A stretch of 64,000 nucleotides of DNA from positions 2,687,655-2,751,654 of the forward strand of contig NZ_CP100448.1 in the NCBI RefSeq assembly GCF_024227715.1. Direction: 5' to 3'. Positions within the stretch are counted from its first letter, which is position 1. Each line of letters starts with the position of its first letter. The notes beneath the pieces were generated by a model, which saw only the letters and a program-made list of their open reading frames with translations, had not been told where the DNA came from and did not search any database. Origin of the DNA: Halomarina litorea (GTDB lineage Archaea > Halobacteriota > Halobacteria > Halobacteriales > Haloarculaceae). Shown here one piece after another: positions 4,234 to 44,207 of the stretch. The position numbers and the translations under genes were made by a program.

Positions 4234-5324
4234 AACTCATCAGACACTGTATCTAAAGAGTACCTACGTTCAATAGTCTTTATTGCTTCTTCTGATATTC
4301 TTTTATATTCGGTGTCTTCGCTTAAAGCTCGACAAATTGCTCGGGCTGTTCCGTTCGGAACGCTAGAATCAACTATGAAGCCGTTCTCCCCATCTCGGAC
4401 CAGTCCAGAGAGGTCTCCGACAGGAGTAACTACAGGAACAGTACCATGAGACATGCCTTCAAGTATTGACTTTGGCAAACCTTCAGATCGTGAAGGCAGG
4501 ACTACCAACATTGAGTTTGACAATTCAGCCATAGCTTCTGAATGGGGAACCCAACCTTCAATTCTCACATTAGGATCATTTTCAAACCTGTCCGACAGCT
4601 GACTAAGCAGAGGACCGTCACCGATGATTACAAACTCATACTTGTTATAGCCAGATTTTGATAAGAATTCAACAGCATCTGCGAACCGATCTGCACCTTT
4701 TAATCTGCACACCCTACCCAAGAATACAATTTTTTCCACTTTACATTCATTTCGTTTTACTCTTTGATAATTGTATGGAAGGCTTACGATTTTATTTCTA
4801 TACAGACTAAGAATGGAGTAGTCAGCCATTGACTCCGTAAACGTAAGTATATTATCTGAAACTGTGAAGGAAATGAGTTCCGTCATTAACGTAAGGTTCG
4901 AAAGCAGATACCGATCCATTTTGCTTCCCTGATTGTAGGCATTTCTAGGTTCCCCTATTACACAGATCGCTACACTTACACCGAGAATCTTTGATACCAA
5001 AATCGGCAATATTAGGGAAAATCCCCCTGCATGCCAAATAGTGTCGCTCAGATAAGATCTTCTACGGATGATGTAGTATGTAAGTTCGATTTGGAACCAG
5101 AGATTTGATAACAACCCACCAATGGTTGTATTCCAGTTCTTTTTTTCGATTGGAATTACATCCACATTGGGTCGGTGGTTAATATTCTTACTAAATACTG
5201 TTACAGGTATGCCGTTATCTAAGGCAAGATCGATTATATTCTCTATATCATCCTTAGATGGGTCTCTATCTGGATTATTCGGTGGCACCCGAATGAGGCC
5301 AATCCCACTCATTAGTTTTCCCAA
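4212..5324 (-). CDS. GT4-family glycosyltransferase
   Basis: Predicted glycosyltransferase of 370 residues. The C-terminal half has KIVFLGRVCRLKGADRF, VIIGDGPLLSQL and SRSEGLPKSILEGMSHGTVPVV, the GT4 nucleotide-sugar signature. The N-terminal half is less typical and holds hydrophobic stretches (around IWHAGGFSLILPILVSKILG), possibly a membrane-associating helix near the polyprenyl-phosphate acceptor. The start at 5324 precedes MGKLMSGIGLIRVPPNNPD; a later ATG at 5309 is possible. It ends inside the convergent neighbour with a 22-bp overlap. AT-rich like the rest of 1-11 kb. Confidence 0.8.
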   Translation of the reverse strand: MGKLMSGIGLIRVPPNNPDRDPSKDDIENIIDLALDNGIPVTVFSKNINHRPNVDVIPIEKKNWNTTIGGLLSNLWFQIELTYYIIRRRSYLSDTIWHAGGFSLILPILVSKILGVSVAICVIGEPRNAYNQGSKMDRYLLSNLTLMTELISFTVSDNILTFTESMADYSILSLYRNKIVSLPYNYQRVKRNECKVEKIVFLGRVCRLKGADRFADAVEFLSKSGYNKYEFVIIGDGPLLSQLSDRFENDPNVRIEGWVPHSEAMAELSNSMLVVLPSRSEGLPKSILEGMSHGTVPVVTPVGDLSGLVRDGENGFIVDSSVPNGTARAICRALSEDTEYKRISEEAIKTIERRYSLDTVSDEFHDIFVE

Positions 5325-5382: not shown

Positions 5383-6687
5383 TCATGTTCTAATGGTATC
5401 ATTGAATGCGGATGCGAATTCCTGACGCATGCGCTCATGAGAGTAGCGATTTACAGCAGATTCGTTGATATCATGTTTGACGTTTCCCAGCTCACGGTAT
5501 TCCAAATACGATGATTTGATATACTGATATACGCTTGATTGATTTATCGCATGCTTACCGGCCCCAGTCTCAGCCAATATTCTTGAACTGACTCCTCTTG
5601 GTCCCCCGAATGAAAGGATTGGCCGTCCAACGCTGAGGTACTCAAATATCTTTCCAGGGCATACTTCCTCTTCTCGAGGGTGATCCCATTGCATTGACAC
5701 TAATATTTGCGACGCTTGCTGGGCCTTTTGAACCGCTTTTCTTGAAACCACACCGTGCTGGCGGACATTTTCAGTAAGTCCATGCTGTGAAGCTATAGCT
5801 TCTAGGTTTTTCGATACCGGCCCATAGTGGTTAAATACCAAGTCATCGAGGAAATTATCGTATTCTTTGGATAAATCAGAGAATGACTGGAATAGCCAAG
5901 TTGGATCGCGCTTTTCACCATACAACGATCCAGTGTGCGTAACTGAGAATTGATTACAGTTCAAGTCGTGTTTTAAACTATCATCCAAAGAGAAGCCGTT
6001 TTTGATTGAATATGATGGGATACCATGCATTTGATGAAGTTGCTGTGCAAAGGGATCAGTTGTGGTAGTGACGGCTTCCGCATTAGCTAATGTTTCCTGC
6101 TCTAGCTGACTTTCAAAGTGTTTTCTAATAGGGTTGTGAGTGTAGTAGTGGCTTTGCGTCCATAAGTCTCTGTAGTCTGCTATCCATGGAATTGTAAACT
6201 CCTGTGCAAGCCGATCACCAACTATATGTGCAGATACAGGTGGTGAAGTACTTAAAATCAAGTCAATATCCTCTTCTTTCAGAAAGTCCGAACCCTTTTC
6301 TATACCATCTGGAATCCAGTACTTATACCCGTCCGGATATGATAGTGCCTCATACGGTAACCTAAATATCTCTTTGACATATTCCTTGACAGGATTTTTG
6401 GCACTTGTAGTTGAGTTTTCAGAACTAGTGTTGGATTGGCTAGAATCATCAGCATACATAGTAGATAAGAAGTCGGGAGCTTTCTCTTTTAACACAGTAC
6501 CTACCGTCCCAACATAGTCTGATTCAACAACACGGCATTCTACATCTGGATTGATGCTCAGCTCAGGAGTTAGAATGGCTGGACGCCAACCAATCTCTTC
6601 AAGACGTCGGACTAGCCCCGCAACTCTTACAGCGCCAGATCCACCCCTAGGTGGACAATTAAACGTTATTATCAATATTCTTTTCAT
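5383..6687 (-). CDS. GT4-like glycosyltransferase
   Basis: Reads as a glycosyltransferase from MKRILIITFNCPPRGGSGAVR, the glycine-rich acceptor loop of GT4 enzymes. I chose ATG 6687 because it starts the first beta strand; the frame extends 15 residues further up to 6732 without family-like sequence. Later motifs are SVTHTGSLYG at the start of the second domain and EEEVCPGKIFEYLSVGRPIL, the donor-binding loop typical of enzymes that recognise UDP-activated aminosugars or uronates. About 434 residues, with an insertion of polar low-complexity sequence (SSQSNTSSENSTTS) in the first domain. Divergent from the flippase at 6832, with a shared 145-bp promoter region. Confidence 0.78.
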   Translation of the reverse strand: MKRILIITFNCPPRGGSGAVRVAGLVRRLEEIGWRPAILTPELSINPDVECRVVESDYVGTVGTVLKEKAPDFLSTMYADDSSQSNTSSENSTTSAKNPVKEYVKEIFRLPYEALSYPDGYKYWIPDGIEKGSDFLKEEDIDLILSTSPPVSAHIVGDRLAQEFTIPWIADYRDLWTQSHYYTHNPIRKHFESQLEQETLANAEAVTTTTDPFAQQLHQMHGIPSYSIKNGFSLDDSLKHDLNCNQFSVTHTGSLYGEKRDPTWLFQSFSDLSKEYDNFLDDLVFNHYGPVSKNLEAIASQHGLTENVRQHGVVSRKAVQKAQQASQILVSMQWDHPREEEVCPGKIFEYLSVGRPILSFGGPRGVSSRILAETGAGKHAINQSSVYQYIKSSYLEYRELGNVKHDINESAVNRYSHERMRQEFASAFNDTIRT

Positions 6688-20427: not shown

Positions 20428-20520
20428 ACATAGCCAATATCGGTATAGTGACTTGTCTGTTTGGGTTTGTTTCAGTCGAACATCCGGTTAGCGATCGGTC
20501 GTGGTTAGAATCATCAGCAT

Positions 20521-20613
20521 GTCGGATTCACGCCCGTCCCCAGAACGCGTAGCGTTCTGGTGTGCGGATGAGAGCTCCGCTCTCGTCAACGCCGTCAACG
20601 GCGAGATTCTCTC
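20521..20613 (+). repeat. tandem-hairpin element end, copy 1
   Basis: Starts GATTCACGCCCG and ends GATTCTCTCC. In between are two perfect 9-bp stems with 3-nt loops, CCAGAACGC-gta-GCGTTCTGG and then one closing on GAGAGC-tcc-GCTCTC, followed by a third short stem. A near-identical copy lies at 23873-23965, and a shortened relative at 29537. It looks like the right end of a plus-strand IS605-type element whose transposase gene is gone. Confidence 0.65.
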
Positions 20614-20640
20614 CTGGAGTCAGATAGAGAGTGTTTACCG

Positions 20641-21033
20641 TCACCTCGACCGGCGAGTGATTCGTGCCACAACCAGACAACCTGCTACAGGTCTCGATAT
20701 CCCGTACGCCGGCCTCAACGTGGTGTGACCAGTCGTCGAGCGTGTCATCAGCCTGGAAATCGTCCAACACGGGATGAGTAGGGGATGGACAGTTTGGCTC
20801 AGGATCCAGTACGGGCGATTATGTCGCACGAGTTCGTGTTCCTTCAACCGTGAGAGGATCGCACTGACAGCGTCCGTCTCCAACCCATGTCGTTCGGCAA
20901 TCGTTGCCGCCTTCCACGCTCGGTCGTCATTCTCGTCGAGGAATAGTACGATTCGTTCGGTGTCGGTCCGTTTCTCGAATTCGTCGGCATCCGCGTTTTC
21001 GAACTCGTCGATGTCGGTAGTACCGCCCGACAC
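20641..21033 (-). pseudogene. broken duplicate of the winged-helix antitoxin-like gene
   Basis: From a GTG at 21033 the frame reads a near copy of the intact gene at 21929-22288 (TDIDEFENADADEFEKR, ERIVLFLDENDDRAWKAATIA, winged helix TDAVSAILSRLKEHELV). After RPYWIL the similarity stops abruptly and the rest is unrelated sequence to a stop at 20641. The toxin-like second gene is absent. The upstream DNA is also duplicated, so this is a segmental copy truncated on its 3' side. Confidence 0.7.
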
Positions 21034-21593
21034 ACACTGTGTTGGGACATAGCTGTTTGGCGTGTTTGTTGCTATCGATGAGGGCGTTACCGTGCCCAAC
21101 AATTCGAGAGAGGTTTTCCCTCGTAAGCATTGTGAGGAGTGTCCCTCGAATTCCCAATCCATTACATCGCCACCCTGCTTGAGTCAAGTCACATCATATT
21201 TATATAATATATTTTGAATTATAGGCTAAAACTGGTAGTTGCTGGTAGAGAAAGAAGGAGTGCCAAACAGTATTGCTCACTCGGTACGCGGTGTGTGGTA
21301 TACGTCAATTGCTGTTCTGAAATCGCCCGACACGATGGTGATTTCTCACTCGGTGTGGGAGGTGCCATCGATAATTTTTCCACTTTGGTTCGCAGACACC
21401 CCGGCAGAGTCCATACTCACTCGGTACGAGGTGTGTCCCTCTCGTGCCTGCATCGGTAGAGCGAATTCCGTAGCACCTGATGAATGCGGCAGATCTACGG
21501 GCAATAAACGACGCCAGCGTGTACGCAAGCGAGAGCATCCACTCGAGGAGGTACAGGCGTCTACAAGCCAGGCGAACGTATCAGCGAGCCATC
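21034..21593. repeat. gene-poor stretch with CTCACTCGGTRYGNGGTGTGT repeats
   Basis: No credible gene. Three copies of a 20-21-bp motif lie at 21276-21296, 21345-21364 and 21416-21436, about 70 bp apart. A fourth copy is at 22375-22395, upstream of the intact winged-helix/PemK pair. Copies 3 and 4 share further flanking sequence (GCAGAGTCCA before, CCCTCTC after), so at least those two derive from the same duplicated promoter region. Operator function is inference. Confidence 0.5.
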
Positions 21594-21932
21594 TCAGGAG
21601 ATGTAGTCGATCACCTGGCTCACCACATCCTCGGTACGGTCGTCCACGAGCGATGTCAGGTAGTGGTCGACGTCCGCAGCACTGTTCAGCGTCGCAAGCG
21701 ACCAGGGAAGAACGTGACTTCGTTCCCCAAGTGGGTCGCCCTCGTAGTCGTCGTCTCTCAGTGCGAGCGCCGCTTTGTGATAGGCCTTCGTGGAAATCAG
21801 GACCGTGATGAGTTGCACGCCGTGGTTCGGGAATCGAGGAGTCCCTAGCACGAGCATCGGGCGACCCTTCTCCGAGAGCGGGTCAGTCGCCCAGACGATG
21901 TCACCACGTTCCAGTTCTTCGAACGCGGTCAC
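21594..21932 (-). CDS. PemK/MazF-like toxin
   Basis: 112 residues. ERGDIVWATDP and GRPMLVLGTPRFP are the conserved N-terminal strands of PemK/MazF-type SH3-like barrel nucleases, with the family's typical small size. These toxins cut mRNA at short sequences and are restrained by the protein encoded upstream. The start is a GTG overlapping the TGA of the upstream winged-helix gene (GTGA), so translation is coupled. Toxin activity is not shown by the sequence; sure of the family at a moderate level. Confidence 0.75.
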   Translation of the reverse strand: MTAFEELERGDIVWATDPLSEKGRPMLVLGTPRFPNHGVQLITVLISTKAYHKAALALRDDDYEGDPLGERSHVLPWSLATLNSAADVDHYLTSLVDDRTEDVVSQVIDYIS

Positions 21933-22288
21933 CGTACCTCTTCCATCTCCTCGGTTTGGAGATCTTCGAGACGCTCGTCACCGTACTGGTCGGCTGCCGT
22001 CTCATGATGTCGGTGGAGCTGGTAGGCCGACTGGAGCCGTTCTTCGTCGTCCGTGATCGCCCAGTACGGGCGCTTGTGCCGCACGAGCTCGCGGTCCTTC
22101 AATCGTGAGAGAATCGCACTGACAGCGTCCGTCTCTAGCCCGAGTCGGTCGGCAATCGTCGCCGCCTTCCACGCCCGGTCGTCATTCTCATCGAGAAACA
22201 GGACGATTCGCTCGGTATCGTTTCGTTCCTCGAATTCGTCGGCATCGGCGTTTTCGAACTCGTCGATATCGATAGTACCGCTCGACAT
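21929..22288 (-). CDS. winged-helix antitoxin-like regulator
   Basis: 119 residues: an acidic N-terminus (IDIDEFENADADEFEER), a MarR-like winged helix (AWKAATIADRLGLETDAVSAILSRLKDRELV) and a charged helical tail rich in Glu and His. It precedes and overlaps the PemK-like gene, the usual antitoxin-toxin order, and its winged helix would bind the shared promoter, which contains a CTCACTCGG repeat at 22375. A broken duplicate sits at 20641. The pairing with PemK is by context. Confidence 0.75.
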   Translation of the reverse strand: MSSGTIDIDEFENADADEFEERNDTERIVLFLDENDDRAWKAATIADRLGLETDAVSAILSRLKDRELVRHKRPYWAITDDEERLQSAYQLHRHHETAADQYGDERLEDLQTEEMEEVR

Positions 22289-22431
22289 AGGCTAATGTTG
22301 GGACTGTTGGGACATAGCTGTTTGGCATGTTTGTTGCTGTAGACAGGGGCGTTACCACCCCTGCAGAGTCCACGCTCACTCGGTGTAGGGTGTGTCCCTC
22401 TCATCGTAATGTGGCCTCCAATTATTTTTAT

Positions 22432-22460
22432 GACATCCTCCCCGGCGTGAACGCCGAGGT
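22432..22460 (-). mobile_element. right end of tnpB element 3
   Basis: GACATCCTCCCC at 22432-22443 leads into a stem GGCGT-GA-ACGCC (22444-22455). It lies just after the tnpB stop at 22483, matching the arrangement at 19114. A second, inverted copy of this type of end together with the preceding sequence (CTGCCTCCGTGGGTC) is found alone at 25958-26030. Confidence 0.65.
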
Positions 22461-22482
22461 TTCCTCGCGCTGGGGGTATCGC

Positions 22483-23763
22483 TTACCGACCCACGGAGGC
22501 AACTTGCGGGTTCGTGCGCTCCTCGTTGGAACAAGAGCGTGGTGACTCTGACCAGTCGTGGTCGTTCCACGTGAGGCACACGGGCCGTGCCATCGGCCTT
22601 GGTACTGCATCGTCTGTCTGCCGTCTCAGAAACGTCTCGCTTGCGGTGAGGTCTGCATGCCCCTCGAAGCCGCACGGACACATCAGCGTGTCGCGGTGGC
22701 GGGTCGTTCGCTCCGTGGACCCGCAGTTCGGACACTCTTGGCTTGTCCACGCTTCCGACCGGACTTCGACCTCCATGCCGTACTCCTCGGCGGTACACGC
22801 GAGCCGGTCGATGAACTGTCGGAAGGCCCAGAAGTTGTGCGTCTTCGCGTTCGCTTCGACCGACCAGTGCGTGTCCAGTACGTCCGTTAACGCCCCGACG
22901 AATACCGTGGAGACGCCTTCGGCGTGCAACCGTTCGATGAGGTCGCGTACCAGCGCGTCTTGGGCGTGGTCGCGGCGTCTCGTCCGACCACGGTACAGCG
23001 AGTGTATCCGATTCGAGGAGTATCGACCGTCGTCCAAGAGCGATTGAAGTCGAGCGATTTCTCGCGTCGTCTCGCGGAACCGCTCGAACAGGTCGTGCCC
23101 CTCGTACAGCAGTTGCGTGCCGGTTGTCGTCGTACAGGCGACGAGGTTGTTCGCACCAATATCCAGCGCGGTGGTTTCGTCCGCCAGTGGGTGTGCCAGC
23201 CGAAAATTGTCGATAGTGACTGGCTGAAAGGCCCTGAATGTCTGTGCTTGTTCGTCCCAGAACACCTCTAACCGACCCTGCTTGTCGTACTTTTTCCAGT
23301 TGGGTTCGCCCCGAATTTCGAGCCGGAGGCGTTCGCGGTGTCCCAACCTGTACTCGTCTTTCAGATCTTTGCCGACGAGGAGTTCGAGCCGGGAGTATTC
23401 GCCCCACTCGATGGAGTACGACGTATTGCGGATGTACGTTCGGAGTTCGCGGCCATCCTCGGCGTTGCCCCAGAAGCCGGGCTTGCCGTTGGCTTCGCCC
23501 TTTTTCTTGAGCGCGAAGAACGACCGCCACGCTTCGCGGTTCTTCCGTTCGATTTGTTGAACGGTCGAAGCCCCGAGCGTGCCGCCATAGCGCCCGCGAT
23601 ACTCGCTGATGTCCCACACGTCTCCGTCTGGGTCTGCGTAGTTCTCGCGGCGCTCGTAATTGATTTCGTTCCAGAGAGCGGCAGAAGCGTCCAACAGGCG
23701 TCGAAGCAACTCCTCGTCCTCATCGGACTGAGGAACCACGTCGAACGTGTTGGTCCGCTTCAT
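22483..23763 (-). CDS. tnpB: TnpB-like protein (IS1341-type), RuvC-II residue substituted
   Basis: 426 residues, complete frame from [10 protein letters not shown]. RuvC-I is ALDIGANNL (D201), Ruv[13 protein letters not shown] (D371), zinc ribbon CPNC (344/347) and MCPCGF (362/364). The RuvC-II strand reads [11 protein letters not shown]: in canonical TnpB this is I-E-D-L, and here the positions are G290-A291. If the alignment is right, one of three metal ligands is missing. A long polar C-terminus (from [10 protein letters not shown]) runs into the element's right end. No tnpA. Inserted between the toxin-antitoxin pair and the HEPN-like gene. Confidence 0.83.
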
Positions 23764-23872
23764 CGAACTAACAGAGGGTATGTCTATAGATATATGTCTG
23801 CCATCCGGAGTGAAAGTGAACGCGCGAGGGATACCCCGGACTGAGTGGTGTCGGGGGTTGCGTCCCTCTTGT

Positions 23873-23965
23873 CGGATTCACGCCCGTCCCCAGAACGCTA
23901 CGCGTTCTGGTGTGCGGACGAGAGCTCCGCTCTCGTCAACGCCGTAAACGACGGGACTCTCTCCT
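23873..23965 (+). repeat. tandem-hairpin element end, copy 2
   Basis: Second copy of the element at 20521: GATTCACGCCCG, stem CCAGAACGC-tac-GCGTTCTGG, stem GACGAGAGC-tcc-GCTCTCGTC, third short stem, ending ACTCTCTCC. Directly after it the reading frame of the HEPN-like protein begins, so the element end has replaced the gene's own start. Confidence 0.65.
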
Positions 23966-24464
23966 TGAATCAGGTAGCACGCGCATCGAGCAACTCATCG
24001 ACGAAGTCCAGGCCGCGTTCGACCACCGGCCGACTGAAATCGAGTCCGGTCTTAACGTCGACGACGCCGCACTCCTCCAGCTACGGAAGGGATGCCGGTT
24101 GCTCGCCGGCGCTGCGGCGCTCCAAGATGCGGCGTACTACACGCTTGTCATCGAAGCGTCGTTCGTGGCCATCGAGCGAACGGTCGAGTTTCGCTTGTTC
24201 GAACGGGGAACAACGCAGCCCGACGACCTCCCCGGGACGCACTCAGGTGTGTACCGGGAAGCGGCGAGGACAGGAATCTTCGCTGAATCGACCGCTGCGG
24301 ATCTTGCGGACCTCTGGCGGAACTACCAGGCGAAGACGTACTATCAGGACGGGCTCGCTACAGCGGATCGTGCTGAGAAAACATACGCGCTCGCAGCGGA
24401 AGTCCATACGTTCGTAAACTACCCCACCCTACTTCGCTCGGTCGAACGCGACCTCGCTCGTTGA
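23910..24464 (+). CDS. HEPN-like domain protein, 5' end replaced by a transposon end
   Basis: Family-like sequence starts at TRIEQLIDEVQAAFDHRP and is all-helical, with a C-terminal LWRNYQAKTYYQDGLA segment resembling the conserved R...K/H helix of haloarchaeal HEPN proteins (no clear R-x4-H is visible). HEPN proteins are often RNases or toxins paired with a nucleotidyltransferase; no such partner is adjacent. The first ~20 codons from ATG 23910 encode the inverted hairpins of a transposon end, so the native start was lost. Between those hairpins and the conserved part there is no other ATG, GTG or TTG in frame. Confidence 0.5.
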   Translation: MCGRELRSRQRRKRRDSLLESGSTRIEQLIDEVQAAFDHRPTEIESGLNVDDAALLQLRKGCRLLAGAAALQDAAYYTLVIEASFVAIERTVEFRLFERGTTQPDDLPGTHSGVYREAARTGIFAESTAADLADLWRNYQAKTYYQDGLATADRAEKTYALAAEVHTFVNYPTLLRSVERDLAR

Positions 24465-41442: not shown

Positions 41443-42570
41443 ATGGTCAGCCTCTCGTCGCTTCTCGTCGGCGCGGCGTCGACCGGGGTCTCGCTCCTGG
41501 CCGATGCCCCGGCCGGCCGGATGCCGGCGGGACACAACGGCCCCTGGAACGACGACGTCACCCCGCTTCGGAACACGGGCCACTGGTCGACGCTGTTCTT
41601 CGAGGCCTACGACCGGACGGGCGACGAACGCTACCGGGAGGCCGCCGTCGACTGCGTCGAGTACCTCTGTCGGGACGCGGCCCGCCCGGAAGGCTACACC
41701 TTCCACCACCGCGACGAACCCGGCAAGGACCGCTGTAACGGGCTGGTCGGGCAGGGGTGGTCGATCGAGGCGCTGGCGATCGCCGACCGCTACCTCGACT
41801 CCGACACCCCCCGAGCGGTCGCCGAGGAAGTGTTCTGTCTCCACCCCGTCGACGCGGAGACGGGCCTCTGGCGGACGGTCGAGGTGGACGGCACCGTCGG
41901 GTCGTCGTTCGGCATCGTCAACCAACAGCTCTGGTTCGCGGCCGCGGGGTCGCTGCTCTGTCGCGACGGCGGCGCGCCCGAGGTACGCCGGCGGGTCTCG
42001 CGGTTCCTGGACGGCCTCTCGGACCTCGTCCGGACCTACCACGGCGGCCTCGTCTACCACGGCGGGTACCCCTACGGCGACGCGCAGTTTCTCGGCCAGC
42101 GCGTCGGGTCGCGCCTGTGGGGGAACGCCGACCGCCTCGAGGTGCTCGCGCGGGGCTACCACTCGTTCAACCTCTACGCGCTGGCGATACTGAAGCGGTC
42201 GTTCCCGGACCACCCGGTCTGGTCGTCGGACCTCGTCGAGACGCTCCTCGCGCCCGTCGAGAGCGTCCCGTACCGGAACGGGGTGGCCGACAACGTCTAC
42301 GCCTTCGGCTACAACCCCACCGGCTTCGAGGTGGCGTTCGCACTGGAGGTGTTCCGCGACGAGACCGACACCTTCTGGGTGGACGAGCAGTTCCGCCGGT
42401 GTTACGACCCGGCGACGGGCCTGCTCTCGGAGGGGTGGGACCCCGAGACGCTCTCGGCGCGCCTCTATCAGGCGACGCGACTCGCGGACCGCGAGGTGTC
42501 GCTCGCGGGCAGTGGGGCGACGGGAGACGCGGGGAGCGGGCGGGCCGCCCGCCTATTCGGCCGACGTTGA
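41443..42570 (+). CDS. AglQ-like six-hairpin glycosidase-fold protein
   Basis: 375 residues, no signal peptide or membrane helices. MPAGHNGPWNDDVTPLRNTGHW, then GWSIEALAIADRYL and YGDAQFLGQRV, fit the haloarchaeal 'agl cluster protein AglQ' family, related to (alpha/alpha)6 unsaturated glucuronyl hydrolases. In Haloferax volcanii AglQ is involved in S-layer N-glycosylation (established for that organism). Next to nucleotide-sugar epimerases, this supports a shared glycan role. The C-terminus (ARLFGRR) lies inside the 39-bp repeat, and the stop is at 42568-42570. Confidence 0.6.
   Translation: MVSLSSLLVGAASTGVSLLADAPAGRMPAGHNGPWNDDVTPLRNTGHWSTLFFEAYDRTGDERYREAAVDCVEYLCRDAARPEGYTFHHRDEPGKDRCNGLVGQGWSIEALAIADRYLDSDTPRAVAEEVFCLHPVDAETGLWRTVEVDGTVGSSFGIVNQQLWFAAAGSLLCRDGGAPEVRRRVSRFLDGLSDLVRTYHGGLVYHGGYPYGDAQFLGQRVGSRLWGNADRLEVLARGYHSFNLYALAILKRSFPDHPVWSSDLVETLLAPVESVPYRNGVADNVYAFGYNPTGFEVAFALEVFRDETDTFWVDEQFRRCYDPATGLLSEGWDPETLSARLYQATRLADREVSLAGSGATGDAGSGRAARLFGRR
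42528..42566 (+). repeat. 39-bp direct repeat, left copy
   Basis: Perfect copy of 43241-43279. It begins CGCGGGGAGCGGG and ends TTCGGCCGACG, with a GC-rich imperfect palindrome inside. It encodes the C-terminus of the AglQ-like protein. Confidence 0.85.
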
Positions 42571-42574
42571 CGCG

Positions 42575-43009
42575 TTACGGGACGACAGTCTCTATTCCGT
42601 GGTTCGCAGCGACGGCGACCAGTTCGCGGTCCGCACAGACGAACTGGAGGTCTTCGACACTCTCCGCGAGGTCGAGAGCCGTGGCGAGTTGCAGGCTATC
42701 GAGCGTCCTGAGGTCGTCGACCAGGACGAGGTCGAGCGACCGTTCCTGTGGGACGTCGGCGAGCGGGACGATGACGAACTCGTCGAGCGCTTCGGCGAAG
42801 AACGCACCCACGAGTCCCTCCATCTCCACCTCGGTGAGCTCCCCCCGGTTGTGTTTCCTCCGGAAGGCGGAGGCGGCTTCGACGACGGACAGCGAGGAGA
42901 TGACGACGTGGTTCCTCTCGGCGTCGAGGATTCGGTCTATCGTCTCGGTCCCCGGTTCCTCGTGGTAGCGCTTCACCAGCGCCGACGTATCGAGGAAGTA
43001 CTCGCCCAT
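42575..43009 (-). CDS. vapC: VapC-type PIN ribonuclease toxin
   Basis: 144 residues, standard size. Conserved acidic residues: D7 in YFLDTSALVKRY, E44 in SSLSVVEAASAF, D104 in LDSLQLATAL and D127 in FVCADREL. VapC toxins cleave tRNA or rRNA. The ATG at 43009 overlaps the TAA of the antitoxin (TAATG). The whole module lies between two perfect 39-bp repeats. Confidence 0.85.
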   Translation of the reverse strand: MGEYFLDTSALVKRYHEEPGTETIDRILDAERNHVVISSLSVVEAASAFRRKHNRGELTEVEMEGLVGAFFAEALDEFVIVPLADVPQERSLDLVLVDDLRTLDSLQLATALDLAESVEDLQFVCADRELVAVAANHGIETVVP

Positions 43010-43203
43010 TACACCCGCTCGTCGCGGTCCTCGATGACGACGTCTGCGAGCGACGTGTCGTCCGCGGTGGCCGTGCGGAGCGCTTTCACGTCACCTCCCC
43101 CATGCGCGTCGACGAATTCCCGCATCCGCGTTCGGAGGCCCGCGGTACCGGCTTTCCGCCGCAGGTGTTCGCCGAGGAACTCGATGTCGTCGGAACGACT
43201 CAT
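43009..43203 (-). CDS. vapB: VapB-like antitoxin
   Basis: 64 residues from MSRSDDIEFLGEHLRR. Mostly helical and charged, with a C-terminus ADDTSLADVVIEDRDERV that could occupy the VapC active site. No classical AbrB or RHH motif is obvious to me; identity as antitoxin is from position, size and overlap with vapC. Start chosen at 43203: the reading frame further up crosses the repeat and is not protein-like. Confidence 0.68.
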   Translation of the reverse strand: MSRSDDIEFLGEHLRRKAGTAGLRTRMREFVDAHGGGDVKALRTATADDTSLADVVIEDRDERV

Positions 43204-43240
43204 ACCCGTAGTTCGTCCGTCCTCGCTGATAAGGGTTCGT

Positions 43241-43279
43241 CGCGGGGAGCGGGCGGGCCGCCCGCCTATTCGGCCGACG
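43241..43279 (-). repeat. 39-bp direct repeat, right copy
   Basis: Identical to 42528-42566, one mismatch beyond its right edge and different sequence to its left. It encodes the C-terminus and stop (43266-43268) of the epimerase on the minus strand. Confidence 0.85.
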
Positions 43280-44207
43280 CTGATGGGCGGAACGCGCTCG
43301 CGAGGTCGCGGACGCCCTCGCGGAGCGTCCACTCCGTCTCGTAGCCCGTCTCCGCGATGCGGTCGAAGTTGACGTGGTAGGAGGGGCCGGGGTGTTCGTC
43401 CTCGAGGTAGGTCACGTCGACGGGCGCGACCTCCTCGCTGACGAGTTCCGCGATATCGGCTATCTGGAAGTTGCCCTCGTTGGAGCCGACGTTGTAGACG
43501 ACGCGGTCCCAGTCGTCGGGCGCGAGGGCGGCGTGGGCGTACGCGCGCGCCGCGTCTTTCACGTGGATGAACGGCCGCCAGTTCGACCCGTCGCCGTAGA
43601 CGGTGAGCGCGCGGTCGGTCAGCGCGCGGAAGACGAACGTGTTGACGACGAGGTTGAACCGGACGCCGGGTGCGTCGCCGTAGTTCGTCGCCATCCGCAG
43701 GGCGGTGCCGTCGAAGCCGTACTCCTCCATCGCCTCGCGCAGGAGACCCTCGCCCTCGAACTTCGTCTCGGCGTAGGGGTTGATGGGGTCGGGGTCGACC
43801 GTCTCGTCTAAGTCCGTACTCGCCGCCCGCCCGTAGAGGTTACACGAGGAGGCGAAGACCACGTTGTCGACGCCCAGTTTCCCCGCGGCGGTGAGGACGT
43901 TCTCGGTGCCGTCGTGGTTGATGTCGAACGTCTCCTCGCGCCGGTCGTGCGTGCTCGACGCGCCCGTGACGGCCGCGAGGTGGACCACGGTGTCGCTCTC
44001 GCGCATCGCGCTCTCGACGTCGCCGTACTCGCGAACGTCGCCGCGGCGGAAGTCCACCGTCTCCGTGAGCGACCCCTTGAGCGACCGGGGAGAGCCGAGC
44101 GAGAGGTCGTCCATGACCGTGACCCGGTCGACCCGGTCGTCGCGGTCAAGCAGGGGGACGAGTTCGCTCCCGATGTAGCCCAGCCCACCGGTGACGAGGA
44201 CCTCCAT
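43266..44207 (-). CDS. NAD-dependent epimerase/dehydratase
   Basis: 313 residues, extended SDR. Nucleotide motif VTGGLGYIGSELVPLL, catalytic YAETK in NPYAETKFEGE, and RPFIHVKDAARAYAHAAL in the sugar domain. Probably acts on a UDP- or dTDP-hexose. The downstream gene on the minus strand (sulfoquinovose-synthase-like) is 4 bp upstream of this ATG, so they share an operon. The 3' end is inside the 39-bp repeat. Confidence 0.87.
   Translation of the reverse strand: MEVLVTGGLGYIGSELVPLLDRDDRVDRVTVMDDLSLGSPRSLKGSLTETVDFRRGDVREYGDVESAMRESDTVVHLAAVTGASSTHDRREETFDINHDGTENVLTAAGKLGVDNVVFASSCNLYGRAASTDLDETVDPDPINPYAETKFEGEGLLREAMEEYGFDGTALRMATNYGDAPGVRFNLVVNTFVFRALTDRALTVYGDGSNWRPFIHVKDAARAYAHAALAPDDWDRVVYNVGSNEGNFQIADIAELVSEEVAPVDVTYLEDEHPGPSYHVNFDRIAETGYETEWTLREGVRDLASAFRPSASAE

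Follow-up and report, generated by a model that had tools for sequence, protein, structure and literature searches.

A VapBC-type module between 39-bp direct repeats at two convergent gene ends in Halomarina litorea, and long host-derived repeats around further toxin–antitoxin modules of the genus

The route by which toxin–antitoxin pairs scatter over chromosomes without a visible vehicle is an old question, and several described systems resemble parts of the case reported here. Some restriction–modification systems insert with a long and variable target duplication on the order of 100 bp, according to a review (PMC3874152, citing Nobusato et al. 2000 and Furuta et al. 2010), and the same type of insertion is described in PMC1643837 and PMC3031569. 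The likeness to the present case lies in an addiction-type module without a transposase of its own, long direct duplications of variable length and an empty site with one copy; the difference is that the known case concerns Helicobacter and about 100 bp, whereas here the hosts are archaea, the cargo is toxin–antitoxin genes, the repeats are 30–56 bp long and gene ends are mostly kept whole. In Haloquadratum, indels and deletion-coupled insertions are bounded by direct repeats (usually <20 bp, four >20 bp) and are read as deletions in PMC3119063. These, too, are strain-specific haloarchaeal segments with direct repeats and a single copy at the empty site; they are unlike the present loci in their usually shorter repeats (<20 bp), in the deletion reading, and in that a link to toxin–antitoxin modules is not drawn in the text consulted.

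Among toxin–antitoxin modules proper, a ParDE-like pair of Microcystis lies between 152-bp direct repeats (PMC7935541); it shares with the present locus the identical direct repeats on both sides of the pair, but its repeats are noncoding, and the source does not present them as duplicated ends of genes. The toxin–antitoxin cassettes of superintegrons are small, promoter-bearing mobile units, sometimes in repeat-separated arrays (PMC2654758), and resemble the present modules as small promoter-bearing operons; here, however, each locus has its own host-derived repeat, and no common attC-like site, repeat or end motif of the integron-cassette kind was found among the compared loci. Integrative elements (for example one at a tRNA gene, with a repeat of 55 bp, PMC4158269) are alike in inserting at a gene 3' end that is rebuilt by a direct repeat, but unlike in that the inserts here have no integrase, no tRNA target, a length of about 0.7–0.9 kb and no common attachment sequence. 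No report of a long target duplication at archaeal toxin–antitoxin insertions was found in the open-access literature.

The locus lies in a window, i.e. the whole stretch of DNA that was analysed, of 64 kb, and consists of the following features (window positions).

41443-42570, plus strand: upstream gene (putative, 'AglQ-like'); last codons within the left repeat
42528-42566, no strand: left repeat copy, 39 bp, similarity continuing to 42570; 3' end of the upstream gene
42567-43240, minus strand: insert between the repeats, 674 bp; GC 64.4% vs 69.7% in the flanks
42575-43009, minus strand: predicted vapC-type toxin gene, 144 aa; PIN domain PF01850 (E=3.3e-9), conserved acidic residues
43009-43203, minus strand: putative vapB antitoxin gene, 64 aa; overlaps vapC as TAATG; partner conserved in homologous loci
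43204-43240, minus strand: short upstream region, presumed promoter of the pair (from its position only)
43241-43279, no strand: right repeat copy, 39 bp, similarity continuing to 43283; 3' end of the epimerase gene (minus strand)
43266-44207, minus strand: NAD-dependent epimerase/dehydratase gene, PF01370; 3' end within the right repeat

The two direct repeat copies are identical at 39 of 39 positions and extend to 43 bp with one mismatch, which confirms the perfect flanking repeats claimed by an earlier, sequence-only reading of this DNA. As that reading also held, the repeat encodes the C-terminus of a different gene on each strand: the upstream open reading frame ends in ...GSGRAARLFGRR within the left copy, and the epimerase ends in ...SASAE within the right copy. 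The removal in silico of 713 bp (the module and one repeat) leaves both genes intact and convergent with the predicted 18-bp overlap, at 42553-42570. The earlier wording of 'both disrupted genes' is better replaced by 'both neighbouring genes', and the label 'AglQ-like' is without family support, since the product of the upstream gene has no match in Pfam or NCBIfam.

The pair between the repeats fits, by its predicted products, a VapBC type II toxin–antitoxin module: a PIN toxin and a small antitoxin gene upstream of it, in one operon. The acidic residues of the predicted toxin are invariant in 10 homologues, the stop/start overlap of vapB with vapC is that of a two-gene operon, and a small VapB-like protein (39–46% identity) precedes vapC in homologous loci; the putative VapB itself has no Pfam or NCBIfam match and thus no match to a named VapB family. 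The two genes take up the 674-bp insert, on which, as claimed before, there is neither a transposase nor an integrase. No close carriers of this vapC were found in phage and viral collections, and its relatives in the plasmid collection were confined to Thermus, with about half of the query covered.

The repeat is present in two copies only in the 3.88-Mb genome and was not found in 7 congeners (31-bp core, up to 3 mismatches allowed in both searches); it is thus no terminator of the dispersed type, even if a stable hairpin (-20.1 kcal/mol) can form from the 39-mer. Within the window it is the sole close direct repeat of such kind outside a transposon-like region, and no other isolated, sharp repeats of at least 30 bp spanning 400–3000 bp were found in 864 kb (stretches of this genome and of one congener, sampled to a total of 800 kb, together with the 64-kb window), barring paralogous or internally repetitive genes. 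Elsewhere in the window, several diverged direct repeats (108–227 bp, about 88–90% identical) are clustered at 20520-23977, a region with a transposon-rich or duplicated look.

This vapC is missing in all 7 congeners, none of which is a conspecific strain, and is patchy farther out (6 of 146 genomes of the family, 23 of 392 of the order). In two congeners the upstream gene and the epimerase gene are convergent and directly adjacent, separated by 31 and about 58 bp; other congeners lack the upstream gene there. Where both genes are present their tails are strongly diverged, and therefore no recognisable single repeat copy is visible at this locus; nor does any of these relatives carry two repeats without VapBC.

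Empty sites are seen at other loci of the genus. In congener G003, the 3' end of hutH carries an insert of 2.28 kb that holds a PIN-toxin pair, a membrane-protein gene and a methyltransferase gene and is enclosed by perfect 37-bp repeats that are the last hutH codons; the right-hand copy is the one continued by ancestral sequence. The hutH site of G006 is empty, and since the matches to both G003 flanks overlap there by 43 bp, it has one repeat copy. With its additional genes, this insert indicates that the cargo is not solely toxin–antitoxin. Differing extra genes also occupy the interval from the hutH 3' end to the adjacent gene in G005 (L108) and G004 (L111); the site may be an insertion hot spot. 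No long repeats were found around these extra genes in either genome.

At a DUF7573 gene, the repeat is 53 bp and comprises the last 17 codons and the stop. Genome G001 has two copies, which bound a HEPN-MNT pair, and G004 has three, with a HEPN-MNT pair and a DUF433-DUF5615 pair between them; a single copy without insert is present in G002, G000 and G005. In a census of the PIN loci of the genus, long flanking repeats were seen at four more loci, which represent three independent sites; the proposed check for long repeats at other vapBC-type loci was positive, with gene-end repeats of 30–56 bp at further sites. In both G001 and G004, mutY is followed by a PIN_3 module between 30–36-bp repeats that open with the last mutY codons, and a VapBC module lies between 55–56-bp repeats that take in the beginning of a small gene for a membrane protein. 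The latter VapBC is related to the one at hutH, and these related modules are flanked by unrelated repeats. At a further locus (L258) the repeat, of about 77 bp, is palindromic and imperfect, without assignment to a gene end.

At the membrane-protein gene (L179, L182), where the inserts of the two genomes are orthologous (91.9%), the two repeat copies are nevertheless alike at 54 of 55 positions in one genome and 51 of 56 in the other, but at 44–46 of 54 in comparisons across the genomes, which means that sequence is exchanged between the copies. Repeat identity is then no clock, and excision is plausible. Concerted evolution of these vapBC repeats extends over about 1 kb. L182 also holds, at 1400-1501, a copy of an interspersed repeat that is about 100 bp long, with about 40–50 matches each in G001 and G004 and fewer in the other congeners.

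Exact flanking repeats of at least 20 bp were present at 5 of 61 PIN loci and 3 of 15 nucleotidyltransferase (MNT) loci, versus 10 of 3000 random positions (0.33%); the remaining 56 PIN loci have no such repeat. With the window left out and orthologous loci counted once, about 5 of 65 independent sites carry repeats of at least 20 bp (binomial P ~3e-6, against an approximate null of random, overlapping positions that were not matched for accessory status). Shorter repeats at L089 (17 bp), L090 and L181 (both 16 bp) were left out as near the 3.2% background for repeats of at least 16 bp; the one at L181 also falls within a gene's final codons. The repeats at distant homologues, not all of a comparable kind, were left out as well (L063, tRNA-like; L064 and L067, interspersed in toxin–antitoxin islands; L069, palindromic; L066, intergenic).

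Across these loci, the duplicated sequence is the host's own, specific to the site, 30–56 bp long and usually placed across a gene end. At four of the five gene-end sites the inserts measure just about 0.7–0.9 kb and are filled by the module, and at all sites the inserts are GC-poorer than their flanks. The modules do not all have the same orientation to their host genes, no recombinase was found on the inserts of the compared loci, and the inserts have no common terminal motif or inverted repeats. The longest inverted end match is 4–7 bp, as in random pairs, and the duplications of 30–56 bp are neither short nor fixed in length, unlike those of an IS element, a transposon or a MITE; the features of an integrase-type element are likewise lacking, with no integrase in the insert and with repeats that are unrelated between loci.

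We consider it probable that a foreign VapBC module inserted at the convergent 3' ends of the two genes, that a target of about 39–43 bp was duplicated so that each gene kept an end of its own, and that insertions of this kind are recurrent in the genus at different sites; the window locus would then have arisen in the same way as the other loci. The earlier proposal that the module entered at the shared 3' end and duplicated 39 bp gains from this recurrence and from the empty sites at hutH and DUF7573, but a single copy was not seen at the window locus itself. The module might have been inserted by host repair, with no need for a recombinase on the insert, either at a staggered break that was filled in on both sides around the captured DNA, or by a polymerase that switched to foreign DNA and resumed 30–60 bp upstream; staggered-break fill-in or template switching fits because the repeats are host-derived and variable, with no shared end motif and no recombinase. 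Insertions that break genes would be lost and those that duplicate a gene end would survive, with no design needed, and addiction together with intact neighbours would favour persistence, as an addictive module may be hard to delete later. Both genes did stay whole, as the sequence-only reading stated for its 'gene-preserving acquisition mechanism'; the same picture would, however, be left by selection against insertions that disrupt genes, and a mechanism that preserves genes by itself does not follow from it.

An unlikely alternative is that a dedicated recombinase acts in trans and moves the modules as cassettes, by a staggered cut of 30–60 bp at gene ends or by recombination through the repeats. 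The two different modules serially inserted at one gene end of G004 have the look of stacked cassettes, and the repeat copies at the membrane-protein gene recombine, being more alike within than between genomes; yet the inserts share no site, terminal motif or inverted ends, are small and without a recombinase gene, and stand in no constant orientation to the host gene, and the repeat length is variable (30–56 bp). In a broader form, and quite unlikely in our estimate, unrelated haloarchaeal toxin–antitoxin families would be moved as cassettes by one shared, undescribed recombination system that makes cuts with a 30–60-bp stagger at the ends of genes and through which the repeats continue to recombine; if so, modules could stack and leave with the host gene unharmed. 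Integrative elements typically enter the 3' ends of genes and rebuild them, leaving direct repeats. The module might accordingly be the remnant of a larger element whose integrase used an attachment site with a match to the gene end and of which only the toxin–antitoxin pair is left; repeats of similar length would be expected from such elements, but we regard this origin as improbable, given the small module-filled inserts without trace of an integrase at four of five gene-end sites, the related VapBC modules with unrelated repeats at hutH and the membrane-protein gene, and the lack of close homologues in collections of phages, plasmids and viruses. A repeated loss of everything but the module, with both repeats retained, would also be an unlikely course of events.

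It is very improbable that the two-copy state is old and that single copies result from deletions between the repeats, as has been proposed for Haloquadratum indels (PMC3119063). Deletions through repeats have been documented in haloarchaea, and the repeat copies do exchange sequence; however, the hutH and DUF7573 repeats are the coding end of a conserved gene, for which a second copy needs a prior duplication, the GC content of the inserts looks foreign, and the gap at the hutH site is short in four congeners (G000, G001, G002 and G006), which makes an insertion in G003 the simpler account. Scarcely credible, finally, is a GC-rich hairpin or terminator that lies on both sides by chance: the stable fold of the 39-mer would agree with it, as would the dispersed hairpin-like or tRNA-like repeats that flank some distant homologues (L063, L067, L069), but both gene ends are encoded by the repeat, and no further copy was detected in the genome or in the 7 congeners (31-bp core, at most 3 mismatches).

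With the insertion of foreign modules and duplication of the host target as the preferred reading, several insertions are mapped to the base level, with empty sites in congeners, and insertion with a long target duplication, known for bacterial restriction–modification genes, is extended to archaeal toxin–antitoxin modules. Duplication of their ends is what lets the host genes survive, and the loci suggest that toxin–antitoxin pairs can spread without a visible transposase. As haloarchaeal genetics exists, it is directly testable whether break repair, template switching or a recombinase is the mechanism.

Some repeats and loci of other kinds were observed in the compared genomes. In Halorutilus salinus (L067), repeat copies at 1990-2034, ~4664-4709 and 5465-5509 separate different toxin–antitoxin pairs; this locus and that of MAG Ods02 (L040/L064) are toxin–antitoxin islands whose pairs are set apart by copies of one 25–45-bp repeat, partly hairpin-forming, and look cassette-array-like. 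Dispersed direct repeats of the GGGATTTGAACC type, similar to a tRNA T-arm, occur also around vapBC in Salinigranum salinum (L063, 4542-4575 and 5633-5666), and at L150 and L144. On the 130.6-kb contig G001:C3, the same PIN loci are present twice (L085/L093 and L099/L104), about 89.4 kb apart, and the contig may represent a circular plasmid of about 89 kb that was assembled beyond its own length.
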